Of a stretch of 22,724 bases of DNA, positions 2,364-21,705 are shown one piece after another (position 1 is the stretch's first letter; each line of letters opens with the position of its first letter). The DNA comes from Chrysochromulina tobinii. Lineage: Eukaryota > Haptophyta > Prymnesiales > Chrysochromulinaceae. Made by a program: the position numbers and the translations under genes. The notes beneath the pieces were generated by a model. That model was not told the DNA's origin. It did not search any database and saw only the letters and a list, made by a program, of their open reading frames with translations. The stretch spans positions 1 through 22,724 of the forward strand of contig JWZX01002685.1 in NCBI GenBank assembly GCA_001275005.1, given 5' to 3'.

Positions 2364-2373
2364 CTTTTGAGAA

Positions 2374-2457
2374 GAGAATACTTCGTTTGTGAGACGATTA
2401 GTTCCTCGACTTTTAGTTGTGAGACGATGGAACTCATGGTTTCGGTTGTGAGACGAT
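2374..2457 (+). repeat. Left terminal inverted repeat (84 bp)
   Basis: Base-by-base comparison with the reverse complement of 15264-15347 gives identity over all 84 positions. It includes three copies of the TTGTGAGACGAT unit separated by unique sequence such as AGTTCCTCGACTTTTAG. Perfect identity of the two ends implies a recent insertion or ongoing homogenisation. Confidence 0.93.
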
Positions 2458-2820
2458 AGTTCTTCGGTTGCGTTTGTGAGACGATGTAAGTCGCGTTTGT
2501 GAGACGATTTCGGTCTCCGGTCGTTCGAGTTGCGTTCGTGAGACGAATGACTTTTTTTACTTCTCACGTCGGAGACTATTTTTGGTGCTGGATGTTGGAC
2601 TCCGCCTGAAGACGATGTTTAACTTTCGTTTGTGAGACGATTTTGGGCGCTGTGTAAGTTCGACTTGTGTTTGTGAGACGATTTTGGTCGCCGGTCCTTC
2701 GACTTTCGTTTGTGAGACCATGTTGTTCGATGCTTAACTTTCGTATGTGAGACGATTTTGGGCGCCGTGTAAGTTCAACTTGCGTTTGTGAGACGAATTA
2801 GTTTCGTTTGTGAGACGATT
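2381..2820 (+). repeat. Left subterminal repeat array (GTTTGTGAGACGAT units)
   Basis: About twelve copies of a TTGTGAGACGAT-like unit, all in the same orientation, spaced irregularly at roughly 20-90 bases. Some are embedded in a longer repeat of the form ACTTTCGTWTGTGAGACGAT followed by TTTGGGCGC, GTGTAAGTTC and a further unit (about 2622-2680 and 2735-2795). A few copies are degenerate (GAGACCAT at 2714, GAGACGAA at 2540 and 2789). Repeats near transposon ends commonly serve as transposase-binding sites; that role is inferred here. Confidence 0.85.
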
Positions 2821-2882
2821 TTCGGCGCCAAGTTGGCATAGGACGCCGTTGGATCTCGACGACGGGTTTGCGCATCAACACC

Positions 2883-4443
2883 ATGCGGCGATCCAAGGTC
2901 ATCCGCTCCACTGCCCCTGAGATCAGCTCAGCTACGGAGACATGCGGTCCAGTGTCGGACAGCGAGCATTACCCGCCAAGTTCTTCCACGTCTCTGTCAT
3001 CTGTACATGCGGAAGCAGTGCTCTCAGGCTTCCGCGCGCATTCGGGCGGCCTGGTGCTCTTTGTGGGCGATTCAATTGCCGAGGAGCTCGCGAAGTATCT
3101 GCGCGACCAGTTGGGGATGAAGGAGGTCCTCTGGTGCACGAAGCCCGGCGCATCGCCCGCGGACATCATGTCGCACCTTCGCTATTTGCTGACGGTGCCA
3201 GACAATGTCGTTCTGTTCAACAAGGCGGTGTTGCTCATCGTGTGTGCCGGTACGAATCTTGCACGATCTACGCCGTCGCTCATCGCCGAGGAGGTGCATC
3301 AACGTCTGATCATACCGCTCAATTCCCTTCTGGCGTGCCGCAAGATCATCATCGGCCCGATCACGCGTGAGCACTTTGAGTCTGTTGTCGTTGACACTGG
3401 CATTCAAGGCGTACCTAGCAGCGGGACCACCAGGGGTGATCGACGTGGTGGCGCATCTCCTTCGATGCTGCATCAAGCCAACCTCGAGCTCGAGCGCCGC
3501 TCGCTCGATAGCGGCTGCACTTTCGTCAACCTCTTCAATGGGCATCTATCGGCCACAGACTTTCGTGACAATCTGCACCTCAACGCCGCAGGATACCTCA
3601 AAATGTTGAGAACCGTGCTCGAGGTCATGGGGGGCGAGCTGCACGACGCGTCCAGCACATCAATTGAGTCGTCACTAGGCAGCCACGCCCCATCGGTGGC
3701 TTCTGCCGACGCGCACTCGGCTGTGCCGCCTACGCTCTTTGTCGCTCCTGTCAAACGTAAGCGTGCTCAACATAATCGGCTTGCCCATGCGGCATCTCCA
3801 TCTCCGTTCAAGCAACCTGGCCAGTTGGACCATGCACATGTAAGCTCAACACCATGTGATCTTCCTCCTCTCTCGCTCGAAGCCCTCATGTCCCAGAGAC
3901 AGAAAAGGATTCAACAGCAACGTATCGAAGAAGAATCCATTGAGGCCGATCTCTCCAAGCGAATGGCTACAGGGGTGAACCCTAACCCGCTTCTTCGGAA
4001 ACTGTACTTAGGCAGCGGTGGTGGCACCGGAAACTCAAGTGGCATCGGAAACTCAAGTGGCATCGGTGACTCAAGCAGCAGAAGCGCAGTTGACAGCGCA
4101 TGTCACGGTGACAGCAACAGCAGTGACGGGAACAGCAGTGACGGTCTTCGAGGCGAAGGTGACAGCCATGGTGGTCTCCGTGGCGACGGTGGCGACGGCG
4201 TTAGCAGCAGCACAAGAGGCGGTGGCAGGAGCTCAGGGACAAGCGCCGAAGGCAGGAGCTGCGAAGACGCAGATATTGCTGGCGCAGGCAAACGGAGGAG
4301 GACGGAGTCTGCATCAGCAGCAGCACCTTCTGACCCGGCTAACTCGCAGGTCCTGAATACCGTGGATGATGTGGCCGACGCAATCAGGGTCGAAGGGTGC
4401 AGCATTCAACATAGATCGCCGCCGCCGCAGCCAACGCAGCCGC

Positions 4444-4478
<35 letters not shown>

Positions 4479-7400
4479 CCACCGCCGCCGCCGCTGCTGC
4501 TGCCGACTATGTCCACGGAGCCGCAGCCGCAGCCACAGCAGACTACGGCAACGCAGCCGCAGGTGCAGCCGCAGGCGCGTGCGTCGCCGCAGGCGCTGCT
4601 GCAGGCGCTGCCGCAGGCGCTGCCGCAGGCGCTGCCACAGGCGCTGCCACAGCTGCGGCCACGGCCGCAGCTGCCACACCTCCATCCGCAGCCGCAGGCA
4701 CAGCAGGATTCCGATGACGGCGGCGGCTATGAGAGCGTCTGCAATGGCGCCCGTGGTAGCCCCAGCGCCAACGGCCACAACCATGGAGGTACCCAAAGGG
4801 AAAGCACTGGTGTTCGTGGCTTCTCTCTCGGCCAATCTGTGGCGGTGTCTTCCCCGTTCCTAGCAGGATTCCGGTCTGGGCAAGGAGGCTCATCTCGACT
4901 TCCAGATTACGCTTCCTTCGCGTCGAAGATCTTTGAAGCCCCTGCTGTTTCTGCTGCTCCGGCAGCCTTGCCGATCCGTACTTCAGGTACATTATGTGCT
5001 ACTTCAAGTGGCCCGGGAAGCGCTGCAGCCCCAAAGCAGCGTGGAAAAATCGTTTCGGTTGGCGCGAAAACTTGGGCCCTGTTCCCTATCTCCAATAATG
5101 CTGCGCACTCGACGCTCAACCTCAACCTTCAAGAACATACTGATCCTCAGGAAGCTGATGGCGACAGTGACGAAGAGACGAGCGAAGCATTCGACGCCGT
5201 CACGCGCGCAATGGTCGAATCGTCACTGAACACTTCGCACGAAGTCTTTAAATGCACTATCAAGGGTATGCTCGACACAGCGCAGAAGTCCCTCGAACGT
5301 GAGCTACCCAACGCCCCGGCAAAAGTTGTGTCGAACTTGCCGCCGAAGATACGCGTACTCGTCGAACAGATGCAGAAAGATCTTGAAGAGGAGGTAGCTT
5401 CCAAGGCATCAGTGCCCCAACTAGATAACCTTCAGCGCGAAGCTGATCGACTTGAAGCCCAAGGAGCTGAGCACGATACCTTGCGGCAGTCTCTCAGTCA
5501 GGGATTGCATCGGGATCTGCACTACGGTGATCTATGGTCATCCATACAAGAGGCGGATGCTTACGTGCGCTCACGTCCTGGCGCTCCACTGAGAGTCTTC
5601 ACGGGTCCATCGGACAACTGCAAAGCCTATGTCTGCACCACAAGATCACGTGATGACCGCAAAGATCGTGTCCAACGGTTCTTCGATGATGATGGTTGCA
5701 AATGCATCGTCGTCCTTCAACGGGTCACAATGAAAAACCTGAGAAGTGGTACATATTATCCAAGTGCTTGGACAAAACATGTTGTTCGTCAGCAAGGCAT
5801 CCCGACTCCTACTCTCGAGGGGCTTCGACCAGATCTTGCGCCAGATGAGAAAGTATGGGCGTGCGTTCTCACCGGTCGGCATACATGCATGGCGCTTAAT
5901 CCACCTGTGGTCCTAAGGCCTGCTGATGGTTCTTCAGAAACCGGACAGCTATCGTGTGGGGCGTCCAATGCTCAAAGTACGTCAACAGTGCCCAGTTCCG
6001 CCTCCGCTATGCTCGCCACGGGTAAGTCACAAAGGAAGATGAAAGCGTCGACACACTTTGGTCTTCTCAAGGGTGCATTCGATGCTAGAGGTGCAAAGTG
6101 GAAGATGCAGGACGTGCTCAAAGAGATGAAGCTATACGACAGTTCGGCGTCGACGACGTTAGCCTTCACAGTGCTGAGACTTCTACGGACCCCGAGCCTC
6201 CTCACTCCGGAGTTCAACGTCAGCTTGCTGTTTGGTCTCGCACGCAACCTAAGCGATCAAGGACTCGGAGTTGTCTTCCATGTCGTCAACTCCCAGACAG
6301 TGGCAAAGATGATTACAGACATCGCGGAAAGACAATACAAAGGTTATCAAAAGAAAAATCCGTCCGCCAAGTCTGTCAAGTTCGATATCAACAACATCAT
6401 GCCTTCGATCGAGAAGTACGTCAAGGAAGGGGAGACTGACAACAAGTACGTTATAGGCTGGACTCTAGTTCCCGCGAATATGATGTACAACTCACTCTCG
6501 CACTTTATTCCAGTCGATGCCATCGACGGTGCTTCCATGCGACAAACAGCCCAGGGAACCATGTTCATCAGAGGCACAAAAGATGCAGACGATCATTATC
6601 ATCCCATCTCCATCAGTGTCATGTTGGCTTCTGAGTGCAACCTAGCTGTTGGTGCCATGATGGACGGCGAAGATCTACTTCTCAAGCAAGTTCGTGGATC
6701 GGAAACACAACGTCTCTCGAATTCGCCATTGGACATGTCCGGACGCGTCACCATCACTGACGGTGGCCTGTCACTCATGAGTCAGCAGAAAGGAAAGCAT
6801 TCGAATACGTACCAATGGCGCTGTGAAAGGCACCTCAAGGCAGAGCTCCAAAAACAAAAAGAGAAGAAAAGCTTGGAAGTCTACGAACAGCTCCTGCAAA
6901 TCCCCTATGGACGGAGGCACCGGGCGGATGCACTCTATGCTCAACTGCCGGCTAGCAGCCCTCTTCATCGAATTCCTAAGGAACAAGTCTGCCAGGCGTA
7001 CCTAGAGACCTCCCTGTATGGGAACAAAACGAACAACTTCGCTGAGGTGCTCAACCACATGTTCGAGCCAGCTAGAACTCAAAGGGAGCTGTCCAGGTCT
7101 CTTCTCGCAGTAGTCTCCATTCTGAAGCTCAGGCACGACGCTCTACTGGCCAATGTCCGAAGGTGCAAAGCAAATGCACTGCAGAGACAGTCTGTTGCAC
7201 ATCTCCTACCGACGGACAAGTGGCCAGATTTCGCGACAACGGAGTCTATCTTGAAGGAATACAGTGAGTTGCATGACGCTGCTCGTGACGTCCTGGAAGT
7301 AACGCACATTCAGAATCGACAATTTCACGTCAAGCATTCGGCAGAAACAACGCATGTCGTTGACCTGGATGCATTGCAGCCTGGCCAGTATCACAGAGTA

Positions 7401-10400
7401 TGCACTTGTGGAAGGGTCGGGATGAGGAAGCTCTGGTGCAAAGATGTTCAGGCAGTATTTCGTCACACGGACACTTGCTGGCAATCTTGGGTAGCACATC
7501 ACGCTAAGGCCGCGACCTGGGAGACTCAAGTGGGTCCGGACTTCATCGTTCCAGGTGGAGAAGCCATCATCGATAGCCTGCAGTCCTGCCACGAGTCTGG
7601 TGAATTCAAGCAGCTCATCCAACCAGAACTTCGCCCGACGCCGAAGGGTCGACCGGTGAGTTTGAAGCCAACAGCTGAAGATCAACGGCGCGCCAAAGGC
7701 ATTCTTGAGGACAAACAATCGGCCCAACGAGCTCAAACGGAATTTGCGAAAGTAGCAACCGGAGCCAAGTCTTTCAATCCTGGCGGTAAGGGGATTGGGA
7801 AGACATGCAGCTTTTGCAAAGACCCAAGTCACAGGCGTCCAAATTGCCCCAAAGCCAAATTGCTGCTCGGAGATCCCCTTTCCAAGTCTACTTTGTCAAA
7901 CATTGACACACGTGAAGAAGATCCGCGCATGGAAGACGAAATTGATGAAGAGGCAGACAACGAGGACGAGGTGGACCAGGAGGAGACGCGGGGACAAGCA
8001 GAGGATCCAGCTCAAATCGGCCTGCATGACTTGCGTGCTCACATGGAACTCGATCCCGTCGAACAAAGTGAATTCGGTGTTGATCCAAAGCACAAGTCAA
8101 GAAACTTTCAACACGCAGCGTCGACATGTACGGTTTCTACTGCACGTGCTTCTCACAGTGTTCTTAATGACCATACAGAAGCTGTGGCAGGGCCATCAGT
8201 GACGGCTGCCCAGGCCGACGCCGATGGCAGCGGCAAGGGTAAAGATGACTTACAGTTGGGCGGTGGCGTCGGGGGTAACTTCGGTAACGAGGAGGACGAG
8301 GATCCAGTACCTTCCTCTGCAGAGAGTGGCTTCCGAGACAGCTTCGACACCGACTTTGGGCAACCGATCGCTCTGGCGCCCGCACCGGCGGCTCCATCCC
8401 CTAGCCCCGCCATGCCAGGTGACGAGGCGACGTTACCTAAGGGATGGAAGTCTACGATGGTGCCTGATGGTCGGGTGTACTACTTCCATGCTGTCACCAA
8501 GATGACTTCGTGGACGCGTCCCGTGGTGAAGTCCTCGCCTCACGCCCCAGCCCTCGACATGCAGTCTTCTGCACCGTCCTTTGCCGAGGGCGGCTTCGGC
8601 GGCGGCGGCGGCTTCGGGCAGGCGCCAGCTCTAGCGCCTTCCTCTGGGGAGGGCAGCTTCGGTGGCGGTGGTGGCTTCAGTGGCGGCTTGGACGCAGGCT
8701 TCGGGCAGGCGACCACACCAGTACCCGCTCCAGCGGGTGGTTTCGCCACCAGCGGCTTGGACGGTGGTGCGGGCTTCGAGGGTAATGGCGGATTCGGGAT
8801 GGGCGACGGCTTGGGCGGAGACATGCCAGGTCAGATGGGCAGCGGTATGGGCGGCTATGGTGCAGCTCCAGCCATGCCGTTCTCGCGACCGCCTACAGCC
8901 CCGGATGCTTTCTCGAGCTTCGGGGGCGGCATGGGCGGCGGAACGGGCGGCGACAGGGATGGCCAGTTTGTTGCTCCAATGCCCGTGTCAGCACCGGCAC
9001 CTGCACTGGCACCCACGCTTGCAGCTCCAGACACTTTCTCGATCTTCGGTGGCGTCATGGGCGGAGGCATGGGCGGCGGCATGCCAGGTGAGGTGGTCTG
9101 CGGTTTGGGTGGCTTCGTACTTGGCAATGATGCAACAAAATCCCCGCCTGTCAAGGAACCGCCTGCAATTCATCATTCAGTCTCAAGCATCAGCGGTGGT
9201 GGCTTCGGTACCGGCGTTGACACTAGCTTCGGGCTGGCGACAGCACCAGCAACGACTTCTACAGCACCAGCACCGGCTTCGTCTGTTGATGCCAAAAGAT
9301 GTGCCGAACTGGCGGTGGCTTTGGAAATTGAGAAGCAGCGTGATCATAGCAAGCTCAAGGGATGGTCACGAGATGAAATCCGAGGCGCAAAATTTCTCCT
9401 GGAGGAACAGAGCTTTACGATATGCAATGTGAAGGGCGACGGCGCGTGTTTCTTTCGATGCTTAGCTATCGCGTTGGACAACAACGAACGTGAGCACAAG
9501 ACGTACAGACAAGCTGTGACGAAGCACTTGATCTCTGTCATCGACGCAGTGGGTGAGTCGGAAATCGAGCAAGGGGCACATCCTCTGTATCAAATGATGT
9601 CGACGTCTCTGCCAGTCGAAGGTGATCTTAGCACGCGTGAGGTCATTGATCAATACGTGACGTACTTATCTTTGAATGATGAGCAAGTGGACCATTTGGG
9701 CATCCAACTTTCTTCCATGGTTCTTGAGATTGACATTCATGTTCACCAAGTTGACGGTCAAGTCTATGTCCATCGAAGTTCCGACGCCGTACTTCCGAAT
9801 AATCTCGAGGTACACGTCTTCTACGATGGAAGCCACTATCAGTATTTGCGACGCTCCGAGCTAGGACCAAGACCCAAACGCCCAGAGCGCTCTTTTTTCG
9901 GGTCGGACCTGAGATGTAATAAGATTCAGCAACAGTTCGACAATGCCCTTCGAAGGTGGAGCGTAGCCATTGACATGTTTGACAAGGCCTTCTACTCTTT
10001 AAAGTCTTGGGAAGGATCTCAAAGCGTGCGTGTGAGCACAAGATCTACTCCCAGCACTAACATTCCAAGTGTTCAACCACGTCTGCCAACTGATCCTCCC
10101 GTGACGCGTTCGGGAACTGGGATTCAAGATCAACTCGGTAGCAGAGCAGCGCAAGCTTCCCAGTCCACTGCTGAGTCCTCTGCATTACAGGCGTTGTTAC
10201 AAGCACCACCGAAGCCTACGTGGGACATGACTCTCTCTTGCTCTTCGTCGCAAGCCCAACCAAAGAGTGGGAACCACGTGAAGATCTACAAACCCAGGCA
10301 AGCAGGGGAGCGTTTGAGCTCCATCTATCGGAAGCCATACGAATACTATTTACGTCAGACGGTAGACGGAACGGAAAAGGTGTGCCTGCAATGGTCAGGC

Positions 10401-10454
10401 GCGCAAGAGCTACACGGAGATACCCCGCTTGAGTTGTTGCGAAGCTCTGAGTGA
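2883..10454 (+). CDS. Giant MULE transposase protein: SGNH hydrolase - DDE transposase - zinc knuckle - WW - OTU
   Basis: First ATG is 2883 (the frame is open from a TTG at 2868), giving about 2,523 aa. Domain order: (1) SGNH/GDSL hydrolase, residues ~50-250, with FVGDSI (Ser64), CAGTN (Asn125) and DNLH (Asp229, His232). (2) Gly/Ser, poly-Pro (18 prolines) and Pro-Gln low complexity, ~370-640. (3) Helical and Cys-containing region, ~740-970. (4) MULE-type catalytic core: VDAIDG (Asp1212 or 1215), TITDGG (Asp1293), CERH (Cys1314, His1317), NNFAE (Glu1388). (5) Atypical SWIM-like CTCG...C...H (1507-1528). (6) CCHC zinc knuckle, Cys1642-Cys1645-His1650-Cys1655. (7) Acidic stretch. (8) WW domain, Trp1855, Trp1877, Pro1880. 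(9) Phe-Gly-rich low complexity, ~1890-2140. (10) OTU cysteine protease, GDGACFFR (Asp2186, Cys2189) and SHYQYL (His2318). It would excise and reinsert the element. The ORF stops at a UGA inside the +1-frame ORF2. Confidence 0.85.
4438..4700 (+). repeat. Poly-proline and Pro-Gln/Leu-Pro-Gln coding repeats
   Basis: Runs of CCG/CCA codons encode an 18-residue proline tract, followed by repeated CCGCAG and GCGCTGCCGCAG units encoding PQPQ and ALPQALPQ. This is simple coding repeat sequence inside the transposase gene, in a linker after the hydrolase domain, and is likely length-polymorphic. Confidence 0.9.
10366..10454 (+). other. ORF1/ORF2 overlap, candidate +1 frameshift window
   Basis: The ORF2 frame is open from 10366 (preceded by an in-frame TAG at 10363) to beyond the ORF1 stop, an 89-base overlap. 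Moving from the ORF1 to the ORF2 frame needs +1 (or -2). Two places resemble known +1 sites: CTT-GAG at 10428-10433, where a leucine tRNA could slip from CUU to UUG, and the terminal GAG-UGA, where skipping one base at the stop gives GAG-GAG-GAU, in the manner of antizyme. ORF2 has no ATG until 10588, inside its first domain, which favours fusion over independent initiation. An assembly indel or an unseen intron are alternatives. Confidence 0.45.
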
Positions 10455-11682
10455 GGAGGATGCGTTCGCTAAACGTTCGTCACTGACCAACTTTTGGCAT
10501 CTATTGGGACGGCCGCTTGAGAAGCATCACTTTTACTTTGTGCGTAAGTGCCAAGATGAGTGCGACGGAGTTGTACTGCTGCGGAGCATGACTCGTCAAC
10601 GTCAGCAACATGGACGAGGAGCTCCGCGTCTCACGCTAGAAGTGGCGCACGTTTGTGCGAGCGGACCAAGGGGAAGTGGTGCTCTCCTAATCTCGGCGTT
10701 GTGCACGGTGCTATTGGAGTTGGAGCCGAACACTGTTCTGCGAGTGAACCTACCGGGTCACATGGCGACATCGAAAGGTTTTTGGTCCAAGCTAGGATTC
10801 AACGAGGATGGCGGCTGTTCAACGACAATGAGAATGCATCTCAAGGACCAGGCATGGGTTGCTTACATGAAGTCTGCTTTTCCAGAGCAACTGGCCGTCG
10901 ACGACATGGTGGTCCCATCCACAGATATCGTTCCCAGTCTACTCGAAGAAATCTGGTCAGCAGAGCACATGAAGACCTGGCAAGAAAAGGATCCTGAGTA
11001 CCGGATGTTATTGGCAGACCCGAACGCCGGTGCCACGACGGCGTCATCCACACGAGCGGATAATATCAAGGAATCTGTGTCATTGATCTCCAAGTTGGAT
11101 TACCTCGGAGAGCGCGTAACTGTCAAGGGGAATGGAAGCTGCTGGTTATACGCTGTCCTTGCAGGTGTGGGCCTCATGGAACACGCGAGGAAGTGCAAGA
11201 TTACTTCAAAATCCCAAGGCGAGCTTTCCCCAACTTCCCGAGACTTCAAAGTATCAGCTAAGGTGATTCAAAAGATGAAAGTCTATGCGACAACAACGAA
11301 GTGGGACATGACGGTGATGGCCAAGGATGTGCTCATTCAAGAAATCTCAAGCCTAGAAGCCGCCTCTGCCTCACGGAGTGGTACCTGGGGGGGCGGAGTG
11401 GACACCTATGGTGTGCTGTCGAACATGCTTGGAATTCAAATCGTCTGGCTGAATTTGACCACGCCGAAGAGCTTCATCTTGTTCCCTGGGGGTTTGAAAG
11501 GCAACCAGAAGAGAGTATCCATGAATGCCCTGAAGACGACTATTGATGGTTTGGATGCGGCAAACCTCAAGTTCGTTGTCGTGGAATATGATGGGAATGG
11601 ACACTTCGCAGGATACTTGCCACGACGCCCCATGCGTTTGAGCCTCGACGTTATGAACTTCCTCGGATTTTTCGATTCCTGA
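10429..11682 (+). CDS. Element ORF2: GNAT-like acetyltransferase plus second OTU-like cysteine protease
   Basis: About 417 codons from a TTG; the frame is open from 10366 and the first ATG (10588) falls inside the first domain, so this is probably translated as a C-terminal extension of ORF1. The N-terminal ~150 residues look like a GNAT acetyltransferase: HVCASGPRGSGALLISAL resembles the acetyl-CoA-binding R/Q-x-x-G-x-G/A loop, and ATSKGFWSKLGF resembles the family's terminal A...FY..LGF motif. Residues ~215-405 resemble an OTU-type papain-like protease: VKGNGSCWLYAVLAG with the candidate nucleophile Cys at 11140-11142 and EYDGNGHFAGYL with the candidate His at 11602-11604. The residue two before the Ser-Cys pair is Asn instead of the Asp seen in the ORF1 OTU. 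OTU proteases cut ubiquitin or process polyproteins; the substrate here is unknown. The frame ends at a UGA directly followed in frame by ORF3. Confidence 0.7.
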   Translation: MSCCEALSEEDAFAKRSSLTNFWHLLGRPLEKHHFYFVRKCQDECDGVVLLRSMTRQRQQHGRGAPRLTLEVAHVCASGPRGSGALLISALCTVLLELEPNTVLRVNLPGHMATSKGFWSKLGFNEDGGCSTTMRMHLKDQAWVAYMKSAFPEQLAVDDMVVPSTDIVPSLLEEIWSAEHMKTWQEKDPEYRMLLADPNAGATTASSTRADNIKESVSLISKLDYLGERVTVKGNGSCWLYAVLAGVGLMEHARKCKITSKSQGELSPTSRDFKVSAKVIQKMKVYATTTKWDMTVMAKDVLIQEISSLEAASASRSGTWGGGVDTYGVLSNMLGIQIVWLNLTTPKSFILFPGGLKGNQKRVSMNALKTTIDGLDAANLKFVVVEYDGNGHFAGYLPRRPMRLSLDVMNFLGFFDS

Positions 11683-11685
11683 CTA
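11680..11685 (+). promoter_or_regulatory. Candidate stop-codon readthrough site (UGA-CUA)
   Basis: ORF2 ends in UCC-UGA-CUA-UCG. The downstream codons stay open in the same frame into ORF3, so one stop codon separates two long frames. UGA followed by CUA is the best known readthrough-promoting context in eukaryotic and viral mRNAs. If it is used, ORF2 and ORF3 form one protein. It could also be a simple inactivating mutation or sequencing error. Confidence 0.5.
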
Positions 11686-13476
11686 TCGGCCCCATCACGT
11701 GGTGCTGGTTGCTCTGTAACTGTGAGCGTCAAGGATCACGTGATCAGTAGTGAGGGCGTTCAGCTACATGCAAGCGGCAGTCTGCAATTGGATGGTCAAG
11801 TGATTGAGTGGCTTAGTCATCATCCGCATCCTGGTCACGCGTCGGCAGGTTCGATTGGGAACCCGATTCTGAGGCACACGCAAAGCGAACTCGTCTTAGA
11901 CGAGCTGAGTTTACCTGTGTTGAGTGACGACGTGATGCATGGCGTAAACGTAACTTCAAAAGAAGGTGTGACTGTGGCACGAGTGGCATGGATGCTACCC
12001 ACCACAGTTGACAAGTTGAGCAACCTTCCCGAAGGGTCGACTCGGAAGTTAGTGGAGGAGCTGCGTGCGTGGGCGATGGAGCAAGAGGTTGATAAGAATA
12101 CTACCACAATCCAGCCAGCCGCTGGCCACTACATCAGCCTTGGACACGGGATACTGCCCGGAAGACGACGTGAGTCCGTAATGCTGGACGGAGCTTCTAC
12201 CAACATCCCATTTACACGAGCTCCGGCTGGAAGAAGCGATGACGTCGAACCTACTCTGAGATCATTGAATGGACATGTTGCCAAGTGCATGGTGTCGGTA
12301 TTCCCGGACATGAAGCCCTGGTGTGTTACCAACGGAGCGAAGAGCGACCAAGAGTTCTGGACGCAGGTATGCCAATACCCGTCTGCACCTCCGGGCGGAT
12401 TTACGTTTCCCTCACAGCAGGTGGTGGTGAGGGGACACTGTTCGGACGACCTCCCGGAGGCCTCAGCGGCCGATCTACACATTGATAAAATGGACGGTGG
12501 CGGACTCTATGGCGGCACCATCATGTTCCTCGGTGGGCACGAGTCTCACCCCGGTCAATGGCGCAATTTTGCAATTTTCGAAGGCGCCAAGGGAGGGCGC
12601 GGTGTTTCGATTCCGGTGATGCTCAGTGACTGTATCTGCGTGCTAAGTTGCCAGTATCAGAGGCATTTGCACGGCACGGTCCTAGTGGAACAGCTCGAAG
12701 GTGACGCGCTGACCAAGGCGGCGCCATGTCGAAGGGTTGAAGGCTTGCATGTGGTCTCCTACAACCTGCGCATGATCGAAGGATTCGTGAATCGCATGTC
12801 TAGGGAAAGTGCCGAGAGACAGGCCAAGGTCGTATCAAAATACCTGGACGAACGCTTACGAGCTCGCGCTAGTGCGTGGATGAGGCGCCGGAACGTAGCC
12901 GAAGAGGAAAACCATGAAGTGCCCTCACTGCTGCCCACACCGCCGGCGTTGAACTCTGGAGAAGCGGCTTCTTCGTCGAGTGACGCTGTGCCGGCTTCCG
13001 TGATAGGCACGCAAAGTCGGGGCAGGGCAGTTGCGTACTGGCTGATGAGATGCGCTTCGTGCAGGTCGAACAATGAGGTTGGCGTCCCACTGAGCGAGGA
13101 GTTGCACGAGTTTGCAGTGCGCTGCCACGCGTGCCGGGCGCTCAATAAGGTCTCCTTGGATGCGGGTGGCGAGCCTCTGCTCGTCGCTGAAGGACTCTCG
13201 GAATGGGCAGACCCTTCCGAACGGTCGCCGACGCCACCTGTGCCCAAGCCCCCGCCCCAACCCCCGTCACTGCGTGTCCCTTCTTTTTATCTCAAGAACT
13301 CGTCAACCCCTGCTGATGGTGACCCGCAACAATACGCGGACTTGGCGCGCAAGACTGTCCTGGCTGCAATGCCCGTGGTCGAGAAGCTCAAGAGGATACG
13401 AGAGGCCGTGGAAGCACGTGAGGCGAGGGCGGCGAAACGCAACACAGGGGCAAGAGGTCCTGCGGAACGTCGATAA
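11683..13476 (+). CDS. Element ORF3: candidate 2-oxoglutarate/Fe(II) dioxygenase with C-terminal zinc ribbon
   Basis: The frame continues directly from ORF2 after a single UGA and runs 598 codons; the first ATG is at 11935. The central part suggests a double-stranded beta-helix dioxygenase. DLHIDKMDGGGLYGGTIM supplies an H-x-D pair (His 12478, Asp 12484), followed ~60 residues later by QRHLHGT (candidate His at 12664 or 12670) and an Arg in YNLRMI. The spacing and the GVSIPVMLSDCICVLS stretch before the distal His are reminiscent of TET/JBP-type oxygenases, which oxidise methylated bases and are known to travel with some transposon families, but the match is by eye and could be another oxygenase subfamily. 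Near the C-terminus two CxxC pairs (13051 and 13123) form a zinc ribbon: RCASC...RCHAC. A Pro-rich tail follows, then a basic end. A role in acting on DNA or chromatin modification is inferred. Confidence 0.55.
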   Translation, partial: LSAPSRGAGCSVTVSVKDHVISSEGVQLHASGSLQLDGQVIEWLSHHPHPGHASAGSIGNPILRHTQSELVLDELSLPVLSDDVMHGVNVTSKEGVTVARVAWMLPTTVDKLSNLPEGSTRKLVEELRAWAMEQEVDKNTTTIQPAAGHYISLGHGILPGRRRESVMLDGASTNIPFTRAPAGRSDDVEPTLRSLNGHVAKCMVSVFPDMKPWCVTNGAKSDQEFWTQVCQYPSAPPGGFTFPSQQVVVRGHCSDDLPEASAADLHIDKMDGGGLYGGTIMFLGGHESHPGQWRNFAIFEGAKGGRGVSIPVMLSDCICVLSCQYQRHLHGTVLVEQLEGDALTKAAPCRRVEGLHVVSYNLRMIEGFVNRMSRESAERQAKVVSKYLDERLRARASAWMRRRNVAEEENHEVPSLLPTPPALNSGEAASSSSDAVPASVIGTQSRGRAVAYWLMRCASCRSNNEVGVPLSEELHEFAVRCHACRALNKVSLDAGGEPLLVAEGLSEWADPSERSPTPPVPKPPPQPPSLRVPSFYLKNSSTPADGDPQQYADLARKTVLAAMPVVEKLKRIREAVEAREARAAKRNTGARGPAERR

Positions 13477-14683
13477 TGCAGGTGTGAGGGGTTACTCAGG
13501 AGACGGGTCTGCCTACCCTCACCGAGCTCGAACCGGAGGTCATGAGGGGGGGGTACTTCCCCAGGTCCAGCCCGCCTCGGCTCTTGGCCTGAAGCGAGCC
13601 TCCACGGTGGTCCCATGGTGGTCGCGGTCGGGCCAAGGGCTACCACCTCGGTAGGTGGACGAACTGACCTGGGTCACCCCTCACCCAACAGGAAGGAGAG
13701 GCCAGAACCATGTGATGAAACGCTGCCGAAACTATGTGATGAGACGCTGCCGAACTGGATCTGAGAGCGGGATCTGAAGGTGAGCACTATGAAGATGTGA
13801 AACGTGCATGACACTCTTCAGACCCACTGCACACATCCTGCGGGTGTTGACGCCGGACGCGGCCTCATGACAACACCCACATGATGCCTGCAGAAAATGA
13901 CCAGCATGCGTGTCGCCTTCGCTTGCCCTTTCCGGGCCATGTCGAGTTAGTACTCCCCTCCCAGTATGGGCCGCAGGGGAGGGAATGGTGATGAAGCGCG
14001 GACCTGCGGAGTCTGCACGATGGATCAGATCCTACTGCGAAGACGTGACAAGCACACCTCACGGTTGTCAGCGGAACGTATCCCGTCTCCATCTCCGATG
14101 CCTGTGCTGAAAGCCTGCAACAACACGTGTGCCTCCTCCCTCCCCCCTGCGCAGGCAGAAGCTGAAACCGAAAGATTCCCATCAAGATACTGACGAGAGA
14201 GGGGGGGAAGGGGGCAAAGGCCCGTCGTCCGATGGACTCTGAAGCGACTACTCCGCGTGAGGCATCACACATGTTTCTGGCCTCTCGTGTCACCCTCTTT
14301 AGCTGCATCGGAGAGCCGCCAGGGAGTCGGTCCATCCCATCCGTCATTGAGCGAGTCATCTTCGGATGGCAAGGCTCCCTTGCACGAAAGTGCAAGAGTG
14401 GGTCGACTGTGCTCAGGGGGGGCAGTGGCCTATGTACTCCCGGAAAGGCGGCTCGCTTGATGTGGTGTGCTCCTCTGAGCGAAAGAAGAGCGGTTCAACA
14501 TTGAGGCCACAACACAGTGCGTTGTCCGTGGAGGACCTTCGGAGAAAGTCGGACGACGTGACCACGGCCCCTGGACAGCTGGATGGGAGCCGCTGGAGAC
14601 CAAATGGGCGCCGCTGGAAGGCCGCTGGAAATGGCCGAATTGGCGCCCTCGGCGTCCAGAAGGCGCGCACGGACGAAGAACTA
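13477..14683. other. Non-coding right interior of the mobile element
   Basis: About 1.2 kb with no ORF that looks real. Seen in it: a 24-bp near-perfect tandem duplication (13706-13752, ATGTGATGARACGCTGCCGAA), a small hairpin CCACCT-CGGT-AGGTGG (13643-13658), and purine- or pyrimidine-rich runs near 14130-14215. The duplicated unit has a loose resemblance to the GTGAGACGAT repeat and may be a diverged member. It presumably holds the 3' UTR and transcript end of the coding region. Confidence 0.5.
13706..13752 (+). repeat. 24-bp tandem duplication
   Basis: Two adjacent units, GAACCATGTGATGAAACGCTGCC and a copy with one extra base and two changes. They lie in the non-coding right interior of the element, 230 bases past the ORF3 stop. 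Confidence 0.8.
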
Positions 14684-15185
14684 GCGTCTGTGAGACGATG
14701 CAGTTCGGATGAACTAGCGTCTGTGAGACGATGCAGTTCGACGAACTAGCGTTTGTGAGACGATGAACTTTCGTTTGTGAGACGATGAACTTGCATTTGT
14801 GAGACGACGAACTGCCGGTTGTGAGACGATGTTGAGAGACGATTCAGTTGCGTATGTGAGACGATTCAGTTGCGTTTGTGAGACGATTTAGTTGCATTTG
14901 TGAGACGATGGAGTTCGACGGTCTGCGGTTGTGAGACGATGTTGAGAGACGATTTAGTTGCGTATGTGAGACGATTCAGTTGCGTTTGTGAGACGATTTA
15001 GTTGCATTTGTGAGACGATGGAGTTCGACGAACTGCCGGTTGTGAGACGATGTTGAGAGACGATTTAGTTGCGTATGTGAGACGATTCAGTTGCGTATGT
15101 GAGACGATTTAGTTGCATTTGTGAGACGATGGAGTTCGACGAACTGCCGGTTGTGAGACGATGTTGTGAGAGGTGTGAGACGATG
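14684..15185 (+). repeat. Right subterminal repeat array, plus-oriented GAGACGAT units
   Basis: About 22 copies of a TTGTGAGACGAT-like unit, all in the same orientation as the left array. From 14831 they are organised into a ~111-bp higher-order repeat beginning GTTGAGAGACGAT (starts 14831, 14941, 15052, partial at 15163), each holding five units joined by spacers such as TCAGTTGCGTATG and GGAGTTCGACGAACTGCCG. Units 2 and 3 differ from the first by only a few bases. Orientation flips just after this array. Confidence 0.9.
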
Positions 15186-15206
15186 CGGCTCGACTTGTAA
15201 CAGTAA

Positions 15207-15347
15207 GCATGAAAACGTCTCACAAACGCAACCGACCAACTATCGTCTCTCAAACGCAACTAAATCGTCTCACAACCGAAACCATGAGTTCCATCGTCTC
15301 ACAACTAAAAGTCGAGGAACTAATCGTCTCACAAACGAAGTATTCTC
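15207..15347 (-). repeat. Right terminal block of inverted repeat units, containing the right TIR
   Basis: Five units of ATCGTCTCACAAAC type run opposite to the adjacent array. Bases 15264-15347 are the exact reverse complement of 2374-2457. The repeat orientation therefore switches at about 15190-15205, separating an outer TIR block from the inner direct array. Confidence 0.92.
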
Positions 15348-15434
15348 CGAACAAAAGCCCGCGCGCGGGGAAGCTTTTATGACGCGCGCGTGAGTGATCG
15401 ATCGGACCGTCGCGACCTCACGCCCTGCACAATC

Positions 15435-19683: not shown

Positions 19684-20215
19684 CGCAATGGCTGTCCAAC
19701 CCGGTACCGGGTTAGGTTCGGTCGGCTCCGTGGTTGGGGCTCGTGTTGAGTCGGCCGCGTGTATTCGTCGGTCAACGCGTGTGGAGCGCGTTCGCGCGTG
19801 TTGCGTTGTGTGGGTGTGAACGTTAACACGACAGACGCGTGTGGTGTGGTGTGGGTGTGGGATTTTGTGAGTTTTCGTCTCTGTGAACGTTAACACGACA
19901 AACGCGAAAACCGTGATCCGCGTGCCCGTGTATAACGTTAACACGACAGACGCGACAACCGGTGCTACAGGAACGGCACTGTTACTGCCCGTGTGTGCCG
20001 CGTGTGTCCCGTGTTTGTCCCGGCTCCCCCCGGTGTTTTGGGTTCAGAACACACACACGCCCGGGTAGAACCGTATACCGGCGGTACCAGCCGAGTTTAC
20101 TAAAGTTTACCGGAATTCGGAATAGTGATTCCGCGGGCGCGCTATCCATCCCCCTTCAACTGGGGTTGGACCGTGGTGTGAATGCGTGTGTGATTGTGAG
20201 GATTTCTACACAATC
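19684..20215. other. Intergenic region with three copies of a GTTAACACGACAGACGCG motif
   Basis: Upstream of the Ppx/GppA gene. It holds three direct copies of AACGTTAACACGACARACGCG at 19818-19839, 19885-19906 and 19934-19954, interspersed with GT-rich sequence. Read in the sense of the Ppx gene these are CTGTCGTGTTAACGTTCAC-type elements lying 133-271 bases before its ATG. The third copy has flanking sequence (ACAACCGGTG and ACTGTTACTGCCCG) also found, inverted, near 21641-21668. No ORF of interest. Confidence 0.6.
19816..19954 (-). promoter_or_regulatory. Triplicated CTGTCGTGTTAACGTTCAC element upstream of Ppx/GppA gene
   Basis: Three copies in the sense orientation of the minus-strand gene. 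The same element, in the sense orientation of the Nudix gene, lies 13 bases before that gene's ATG. Recurrence in matching orientation upstream of two unrelated genes suggests a promoter or 5' leader element; a dispersed repeat is equally possible. Confidence 0.4.
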
Positions 20216-21176: not shown

Positions 21177-21668
21177 TTTCTCGTGTGAATTGGCGCAGCG
21201 GCTGCGCAGGTGGGCGACGCGAAGGGTATCCGGAAGAAGATCACCGAGATGAAGATGCGCCTTATCAAGGACGCGCTTAAGGCAACCGGGCGGGGCTAAG
21301 CGTTCAGCGGCCCGGCCCGGCGGCTGATCGAGTATGGCTGTGATAATAGGGGGTCCAGGGGTCCCCGAGCTAGTGTTAACCGCATCCGTATGTACGCCGG
21401 TCCGGTGTCTTGGGTGTCGAATTCTAAACATTGGCTGTGAATTGGCTGTTCAAGTCAAGTCAAGTCAAAATAAATCTCCTCCGCCAACTCCATCGACTCC
21501 CGTCCTCCCCTGTTGGCTTCCGGAGCACATTCGAAAGGGTTTATACATTGTCACAGTAGTCAAAAGTCTGTAACATGTATCACGAATCTGAGTCACGGCG
21601 GGTGAGAGAGTCGCGCGGGAATACTTTCCGTGTATTCTGAGCGGGCAGTAACAATGCCCACCGGTGTT

Positions 21669-21692
21669 CGTGTCTGTCGTGTTAACGTTCAC
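21669..21692 (+). promoter_or_regulatory. CTGTCGTGTTAACGTTCAC element just upstream of Nudix gene
   Basis: A 24-bp match to the three copies upstream of the Ppx/GppA gene, here in the opposite absolute orientation but the same orientation relative to its gene. It ends 13 bases before the ATG at 21706, which places it in the leader or core promoter. Confidence 0.4.
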
Positions 21693-21705
21693 ACCTCCTT
21701 CGTAA

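Follow-up and report, generated by a model that had tools for sequence, protein, structure and literature searches.

DNA transposons that encode TET-family dioxygenases have been described in fungi, where TET/JBP genes are carried by KDZ, Plavaka, hAT, Harbinger, IS3EU, EnSpm, ESTA and Helitron elements and are thought to act against methylation (PMC12730594). Accessory domains are also known from Mutator-like elements (MULEs), where OTU (Hydra MuDR-6_HM), SET (Phytophthora), PMD (plants), FAR1, DUF and unspecified inserts have been listed (PMC6446971, Table 1). Here we describe an element in a 22,724-nucleotide stretch of DNA from the haptophyte Chrysochromulina tobinii (the window; contig C1528 of the 53-Mb assembly), in which a MULE-like transposase travels with two OTU domains, a GNAT-like acetyltransferase and a TET-like dioxygenase. 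It spans positions 2374-15347 (12,974 bp) and is flanked by host-type genes, a class-3 lipase open reading frame (ORF) and a 5'-3' exonuclease ORF. The combination of TET with OTU, GNAT and OTU on a MULE-like element appears to be new, while TET transposons and MULEs with OTU or SET are already published.

The element resembles the fungal TET/JBP transposons in that a DNA transposon encodes a TET-family dioxygenase. In contrast to them, its oxygenase has no match to the Pfam Tet_JBP profile and travels with OTU, GNAT and OTU; moreover, no MULE/MuDR is found among the 11 fungal lineages listed in the excerpted part of PMC12730594, which names MuDR for other accessory genes only. With the accessory-domain MULEs it shares a DDE transposase, terminal inverted repeats (TIRs) and an accessory chromatin or protease domain. 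The table passages of PMC6446971 contain no TET, GNAT, SGNH or double OTU, and for one group they give unspecified inserts that potentially derive from the host; these MULEs have zinc fingers and target-site duplications (TSDs) of 8-11 bp. OTU has also been reported in Helitrons, ULP1 in Mutator, and either of the two in Ginger (PMC2836005). Ginger1 likewise places its OTU or ULP1 protease after the transposase, towards the C terminus, and differs by its integrase-type transposase, its size of 2.6-7.1 kb and the single protease in each element, as described in the excerpt of that work. The giant transposons of a brown alga belong to other superfamilies (excerpt of PMC12477816). Among the papers listed by a literature search, judged by titles and abstract openings and with most subscription papers outside its scope, no MULE with TET appeared.

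Core cassette and sister elements

Three ORFs of more than 400 aa are found inside the element, all on the + strand and in two reading frames, while minus-strand ORFs reach at most 208 aa. ORF1 (2868-10454, 2528 aa, first ATG at 2883) comprises an SGNH-like domain, a low-complexity stretch, the transposase, a CCHC zinc knuckle, a WW domain and the first OTU domain (OTU1). ORF2 (10429-11682, 417 aa), in a different frame, contains the GNAT domain and the second OTU domain (OTU2), and ORF3 (11722-13476, 584 aa), in the frame of ORF2 and past the stop codon at 11680-11682, contains the TET-like dioxygenase, a zinc ribbon and a helical tail. An earlier interpretation made from the DNA letters (the sequence-only reading) had proposed one coding strand, which agrees with this layout, and a cargo fused to the transposase as one polyprotein, which does not: SGNH to OTU1 form a single ORF as proposed, whereas GNAT-OTU2 is frameshifted and TET follows a stop.

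The open frames of ORF1 and ORF2 overlap near 10,440, and homology changes frame within 10366-10454. An intron at this overlap was ruled out, the homology to the sister element on contig C449 crossing frames within a few codons with no added length. Because the homology switches frame without inserted length, the overlap is best read as a frameshift, whether by mutation, assembly error or programmed shifting.

Two further elements, on contigs C449 and C1432, are sisters at the protein level and keep the order transposase-OTU-GNAT-OTU-TET, so that the core cassette is present in three elements of one genome. The C449 element is 13,441 bp long, and its TIRs align over 562 columns at 83%. Transposase through OTU2, including OTU1 and GNAT, forms one 2197-aa frame in this sister, followed by a stop and then, without a change of phase, by a TET frame of 601 aa; the stop codon between OTU2 and the TET domain is found in the window and C449 alike. 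Transposase identity between the window and the sisters is 51-52%.

Between C449 and C1432, purifying selection acts on each enzyme module. In ORF1 and ORF2, the synonymous rate (dS) could not be measured for the window, which is too distant from the sisters. In the C449-C1432 pair, dS is 0.14-0.27 in 9 of 11 stretches, the acidic linker (0.59) and the TET core (0.05) being the other two. The ratio of nonsynonymous to synonymous rates (dN/dS), estimated with bootstrap intervals, stays under 1 in each enzyme module: GNAT has 0.13, TET 0.25-0.29, the transposase 0.28, OTU1 0.36, OTU2 (first 125 codons) 0.35 and an additional module at the C terminus 0.25. Among the linkers, the one at 1041-1330 has a value of 0.50 (0.35-0.75), and for the remaining three stretches, of linker or SAP-like type (SAP by eye), the intervals include 1.

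The TET-like dioxygenase domain, of double-stranded beta-helix type, lies at 11722-12843 (+), with the HxD motif and an Asp within 12472-12501 and the distal LHGTV at 12667-12681. Its AlphaFold model adopts a TET fold, and the best matches in the PDB are TET2, NgTET1, CMD1 and CcTet. Together these make a solid case, at the level of a predicted model, for a TET-like oxygenase. The HxD motif is kept in all 22 alignment rows that reach it (2 of the 24 start later), and the distal His and D258, at H+5, in 24 of 24. H+5 is the place of the cytosine-contacting Asp, an Asp or Asn in this position contacting cytosine N4 in TET/JBP (PMC7854593). The Chlamydomonas TET homologue CMD1 has the same fold, HxD...H and Asp at H+5; this algal enzyme uses vitamin C (PMC7854593) and is compared here by fold only, with 11-13% identity in the alignments. 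Pfam Tet_JBP (PF12851) had no match in the window proteins or their relatives, and a further PF12851 search was likewise without a match, though its control also matched nowhere. A PDB profile search with the TET alignment gave nothing significant. The start of protein P0025 was considered as an OTU2 tail fused to TET and rejected, with 25% identity over 36 residues (E 0.039) to P0002 and nothing to P0035.

The GNAT acetyltransferase-like domain (10528-10839, +) and OTU2 (11041-11622, +; Cys 11140-11142, His 11602-11604) are equally solid as folds in predicted models. The AlphaFold2 model of GNAT has a best Foldseek E of 4.3e-5 and 20 matches at E <= 0.001, with titles that are nearly all acetyltransferases or GNAT toxins, and the AlphaFold model of OTU2 supports an OTU fold with Cys-His. 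A PDB profile search with the GNAT-OTU2 alignment gave nothing significant, the best match being an N-acetyltransferase at E 0.11. OTU1 (9432-9845, +) is recognized by the motifs GDGACFF...YDGSHY with C...H. The sequence-only reading had named an OTU, a GNAT-like module, a second OTU-like module and an H-x-D...H oxygenase; the last three are supported by the predicted folds, while the first shows the expected motifs at a Pfam OTU E of 0.02, below the cut-off.

Proposed function

Both ends of the element carry arrays with a TGTGAGAC core. On the left these are CpG-rich subterminal repeats (2458-2822, +), identified by repeat finding and counts, and on the right subterminal tandem repeats with 22-, 33- and 111-bp periods (14674-15171, +). 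Counted on both strands, TGTGAGAC occurs 11 times in the first 1000 bp, 23 times in the last 1000 bp and nowhere between; in the C449 element the counts are 16, 27 and 2, respectively. The observed/expected CpG ratio is 1.89 (2374-2870) and 1.74 at the ends, against 0.99 for the whole element.

We consider it probable that this is a large cut-and-paste transposon of Mutator type, coding for a transposase together with selected enzymes that remove or add marks, and that these are used against silencing. Anti-silencing delivered by the transposase would be the likeliest and best-supported function. In such a mechanism, the transposase part would bind the CpG-bearing TGTGAGAC arrays at both ends, and the OTU and GNAT activities would arrive there in cis, since they form one polypeptide with the transposase in the intact frame of the C449 sister. 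The TET protein would be made from the same transcript as the transposase polypeptide and would oxidise methylcytosine at the element ends, while the OTU domains may strip ubiquitin from the transposase or chromatin and GNAT may acetylate histones or the transposase. The outcome would be an element that remains expressed and transposable. The suggestion of the sequence-only reading that the enzymes rewrite chromatin or DNA marks gains strength from the predicted TET-like fold of the oxygenase; its suggestion that they process the polyprotein found no support here.

Several observations weigh against this proposal. The window copy is frame-shifted near 10,440 and has no TSD of 8-11 bp (0-1 mismatch, within 12 bp of either end), and the whole protein may not be made from it. 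The C1432 element, laid out like C449, is broken in the OTU2 and TET region, and selection was measured on the one pair C449 and C1432. The host flanks have CpG observed/expected ratios of 1.14 and 1.18; because they are not CpG-depleted, heavy CpG methylation is without a sign in the sequence. In the oxygenase model, the loop 258-260 beside HxD has a pLDDT (AlphaFold's local confidence score) under 50. Also, the place of TET2 Arg1896, which binds the C5-carboxylate of 2-oxoglutarate (2OG) and lies six residues before the base-stacking aromatic, is Gly341 in the window protein, Met in P0025 and Arg in none of 24 rows, the counterpart being placed by motif spacing rather than by superposed coordinates. 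Finally, Pfam MULE (PF10551) gave 0 matches genome-wide (its control matched in 3/14) and 0 in 8 transposase relatives, which we take as a limit of sensitivity and not as a defining trait, the filing under MULE being provisional.

An alternative is that the OTU domains act mainly on the element's own products, in maturation of a polyprotein or in shielding the transposase from ubiquitin-dependent destruction, with a secondary role for DNA marks. Known OTU enzymes cleave ubiquitin linkages, which counts against this account. It is compatible with the single 2197-aa frame of C449 that unites transposase, OTU1, GNAT and OTU2, and with the recurrence of OTU or ULP1 proteases across unrelated transposons (excerpt of PMC2836005). 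On balance we regard it as unlikely.

Similarly doubtful is a hypermodifying rather than erasing oxygenase, which, with an altered co-substrate pocket, would attach a new group to methylcytosine in the manner of CMD1 with vitamin C, and so mark the element's DNA. The co-substrate is uncertain, as judged from the residue at the usual 2OG-binding Arg place, which is not Arg. The aligned Arg of CMD1 points away (PMC7854593), so that the missing Arg bears on the co-substrate more than on the family. Against hypermodification, TET2 and NgTET1 score as high as CMD1 or higher, the residue mapping rests on spacing instead of superposed coordinates, and a different Arg or a His (H343) could fill the role. 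We likewise give a small chance to the wider idea of a transposase-guided epigenetic reset machine, in which ubiquitin removal, acetylation and methylcytosine conversion would be fused to, or co-expressed with, the end-recognising protein, and in which the TET enzyme, with its altered co-substrate site, would make an undescribed base modification.

Element ends, copies and superfamily

The perfect TIRs of 84 bp anticipated by the sequence-only reading are present, 2374-2457 being identical to 15264-15347 at 84 of 84 positions. That reading had set the outer limits at 2364 and 15357, which correspond to the extension of the TIRs by a repeat finder to 94 nt at 96%. A TIR-bounded element is thus retained, with different exact ends: for a query starting at 2364, the relatives on contigs C1970, C136, C1752 and C1682 start matching at base 11, i.e. 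at 2374, and since their matches begin there and not at 2364, we place the element at 2374-15347. The exceptions are one end on C1682, at base 10, and C422, at base 28. Immediately outside the TIRs, where a TSD would sit, there is an inverted six-base match, CTTTTG (2364-2369) and CAAAAG (15352-15357). A search for the empty site with the left flank 2000-2373 found no genome match except itself. Further away in the host flank, 19813-19964 and 21659-21695 contain direct and inverted repeats around AACGTTAACACGACAGACGCG.

Further occurrences of the TIR are on C1970 (99/100 bp), C136 (98.8% of 84) and C1752 (94% of 84), with different flanking DNA in each, and another relative is located on C422. 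Within the TIRs, the C1970 copy is 92% identical over 429 bp and the C136 copy 81% over 892 columns. As the C1970, C136 and C1752 contigs stop within ~1 kb of the element end, no whole second copy of the exact family is assembled. C1682 contains a 479-bp element with both ends (~79% identity) and a TSD-like repeat of 10/10, its right side offset by 3 bp. The C449 element is flanked by the 10-mers TAACATAAAA and TAACATGAAA, a TSD-like pair matching at 9 of 10 positions that was equalled by 0 of 2000 random pairs from the same contig at one fixed position. The search for other copies proposed in the sequence-only reading recovered loci whose TIRs match, as well as sisters that keep the core order, but not the SGNH, WW and zinc ribbon parts, none of which was found in C449 or C1432.

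The transposase (5400-7850, +) has Asp codons at 6525-6527 and 6759-6761, CERH at 6822-6833 and the Glu at 7044-7046, within the TNNFAE motif at 7029-7046, and includes the CCHC-type zinc knuckle (7806-7847, +), a motif with a Pfam zf-C2H2_10 match at E 0.0024, below the cut-off. The MULE-like CxxH and NNFAE signature and the knuckle motif predicted earlier are thus in place. D376, D454, E549, R474 and H478 are invariant in 5 aligned transposases from the genome; at position 475, the window, C449 and C1432 have Cys (CxxH) and the remaining two have Asp. Remoter relatives on C1351, C1155 and C935 have 28-29% identity; the one on C1155 (L035 1-4038, -) is in frame with a Macro domain (E 4e-14).

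These features make MULE the likely superfamily, on the basis of the layout, the TIRs and the C449 TSD. A transposase of another DDE superfamily (hAT, KDZ or a new one) is improbable, somewhat more so than the alternatives discussed above. A C(2)H motif is not confined to MULE, which together with the unmatched Pfam MULE profile and the window copy without a TSD would favor such an assignment. Against it stand the 10-bp TSD-like repeat on C449, the long, repeat-rich TIRs, the D...D...CxxH...NNxxE layout, which we take to be MULE-like, and a weak SWIM match (E 0.009) in 1 of 8 transposase relatives. Assignment of the core by profile searches to a family outside the transposases, which the sequence-only reading had named as a refutation, did not occur, and the Pfam MULE profile did not claim the core either; NCBIfam returned nothing for the transposase, and a PDB profile search with the transposase alignment returned nothing significant. 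KDZ or hAT identity was dropped for want of profile support, KDZ being absent from the Pfam matches of the 8 transposase relatives, a weak test.

Putative lineage-specific parts and place among transposons

The SGNH, WW and zinc ribbon modules would be lineage-specific parts. The SGNH/GDSL-hydrolase-like domain (3060-3596, +) has GDS, GTN and DNLH motifs, with a Pfam Lipase_GDSL_2 E of 0.012, below the cut-off; an SGNH hydrolase had been named here by the earlier reading. A database search in which 7,991 candidates were scored yielded at least 4 transposase relatives. Among the sequences found, P0029 (ENA, 5.5-kb contig) has an SGNH domain 67% identical to that of the window, in frame with sequence that matches the window's transposase part over its N-terminal third at 66% identity. 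P0029 stops before the catalytic core; the SGNH fusion thus extends beyond this contig, without a whole transposase. An SGNH relative (63%) is also encoded by an ORF on C1912, a contig whose first 9000 bases have no match to the element ends; in this ORF (L045:1422-3434, +) the SGNH domain is joined to a weak MSL3-chromo-like match (E 0.014).

The WW domain (8433-8522, +; Pfam PF00397, E 3.1e-7) is above the cut-off, in agreement with its earlier assignment. The position of the window's WW domain and glycine-rich stretch is taken in C449 by DEK_C-like sequence (E 2.3e-5, narrowly below the cut-off). The proposed zinc ribbon (13030-13158, +; CASC...CHAC) holds as a CxxC...CxxC motif, while zinc-ribbon-type Pfam matches in relatives are few and weak (E 0.17-0.35). 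Both sisters have a different C-terminal module in its place, by eye possibly a second oxygenase fold. The stretch around the ribbon (12945-13230) has 83% DNA identity over 286 bp with another ORF (C1532:35110-35395), which points to capture or exchange.

A noncoding block (14223-14514) that lies downstream of the TET ORF is 90% identical in C1432 and 82% in C449, above the protein identity across the aligned parts, which ranges from 28% (OTU1 region) to 62% (TET); conservation of the block between elements also far exceeds that of their coding DNA. Weaker copies of the block (72-76%) occur on C1717, C530 and C1573. It was ruled out as a known RNA: an Rfam search of 13400-15360 gave three chance-level matches only, all below the gathering score. 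Its conservation suggests exchange between elements or an as yet unexplained constraint.

Capture of gene fragments without function, by a Pack-MULE-type MULE holding host exons, could draw on the ribbon DNA shared with C1532, the SGNH relative on C1912 and the absence of SGNH, WW and ribbon from the sisters, but is quite unlikely and already disfavoured for the core, whose order is kept across elements ~50% identical in the transposase and whose modules are under purifying selection.

C5-cytosine methylase matches occur in the genome on 9 contigs (12 match rows). One of them, on C2140 (L056:4821-9998, +), lies in a single frame with a gag-type aspartic protease, a reverse transcriptase and RNase H, and this retrotransposon-like frame with a DNA methyltransferase resembles the retrotransposons described in the excerpt of PMC5890265. 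One genome would thus contain both a writer and a putative eraser of this mark, each of them perhaps mobile. A MULE-type element would be added to the transposon lineages in which TET enzymes are known, its TET joined with a pair of deubiquitinase folds and with an acetyltransferase in a cassette kept by selection, and the idea that transposons carry targeted erasers would become testable with one element.

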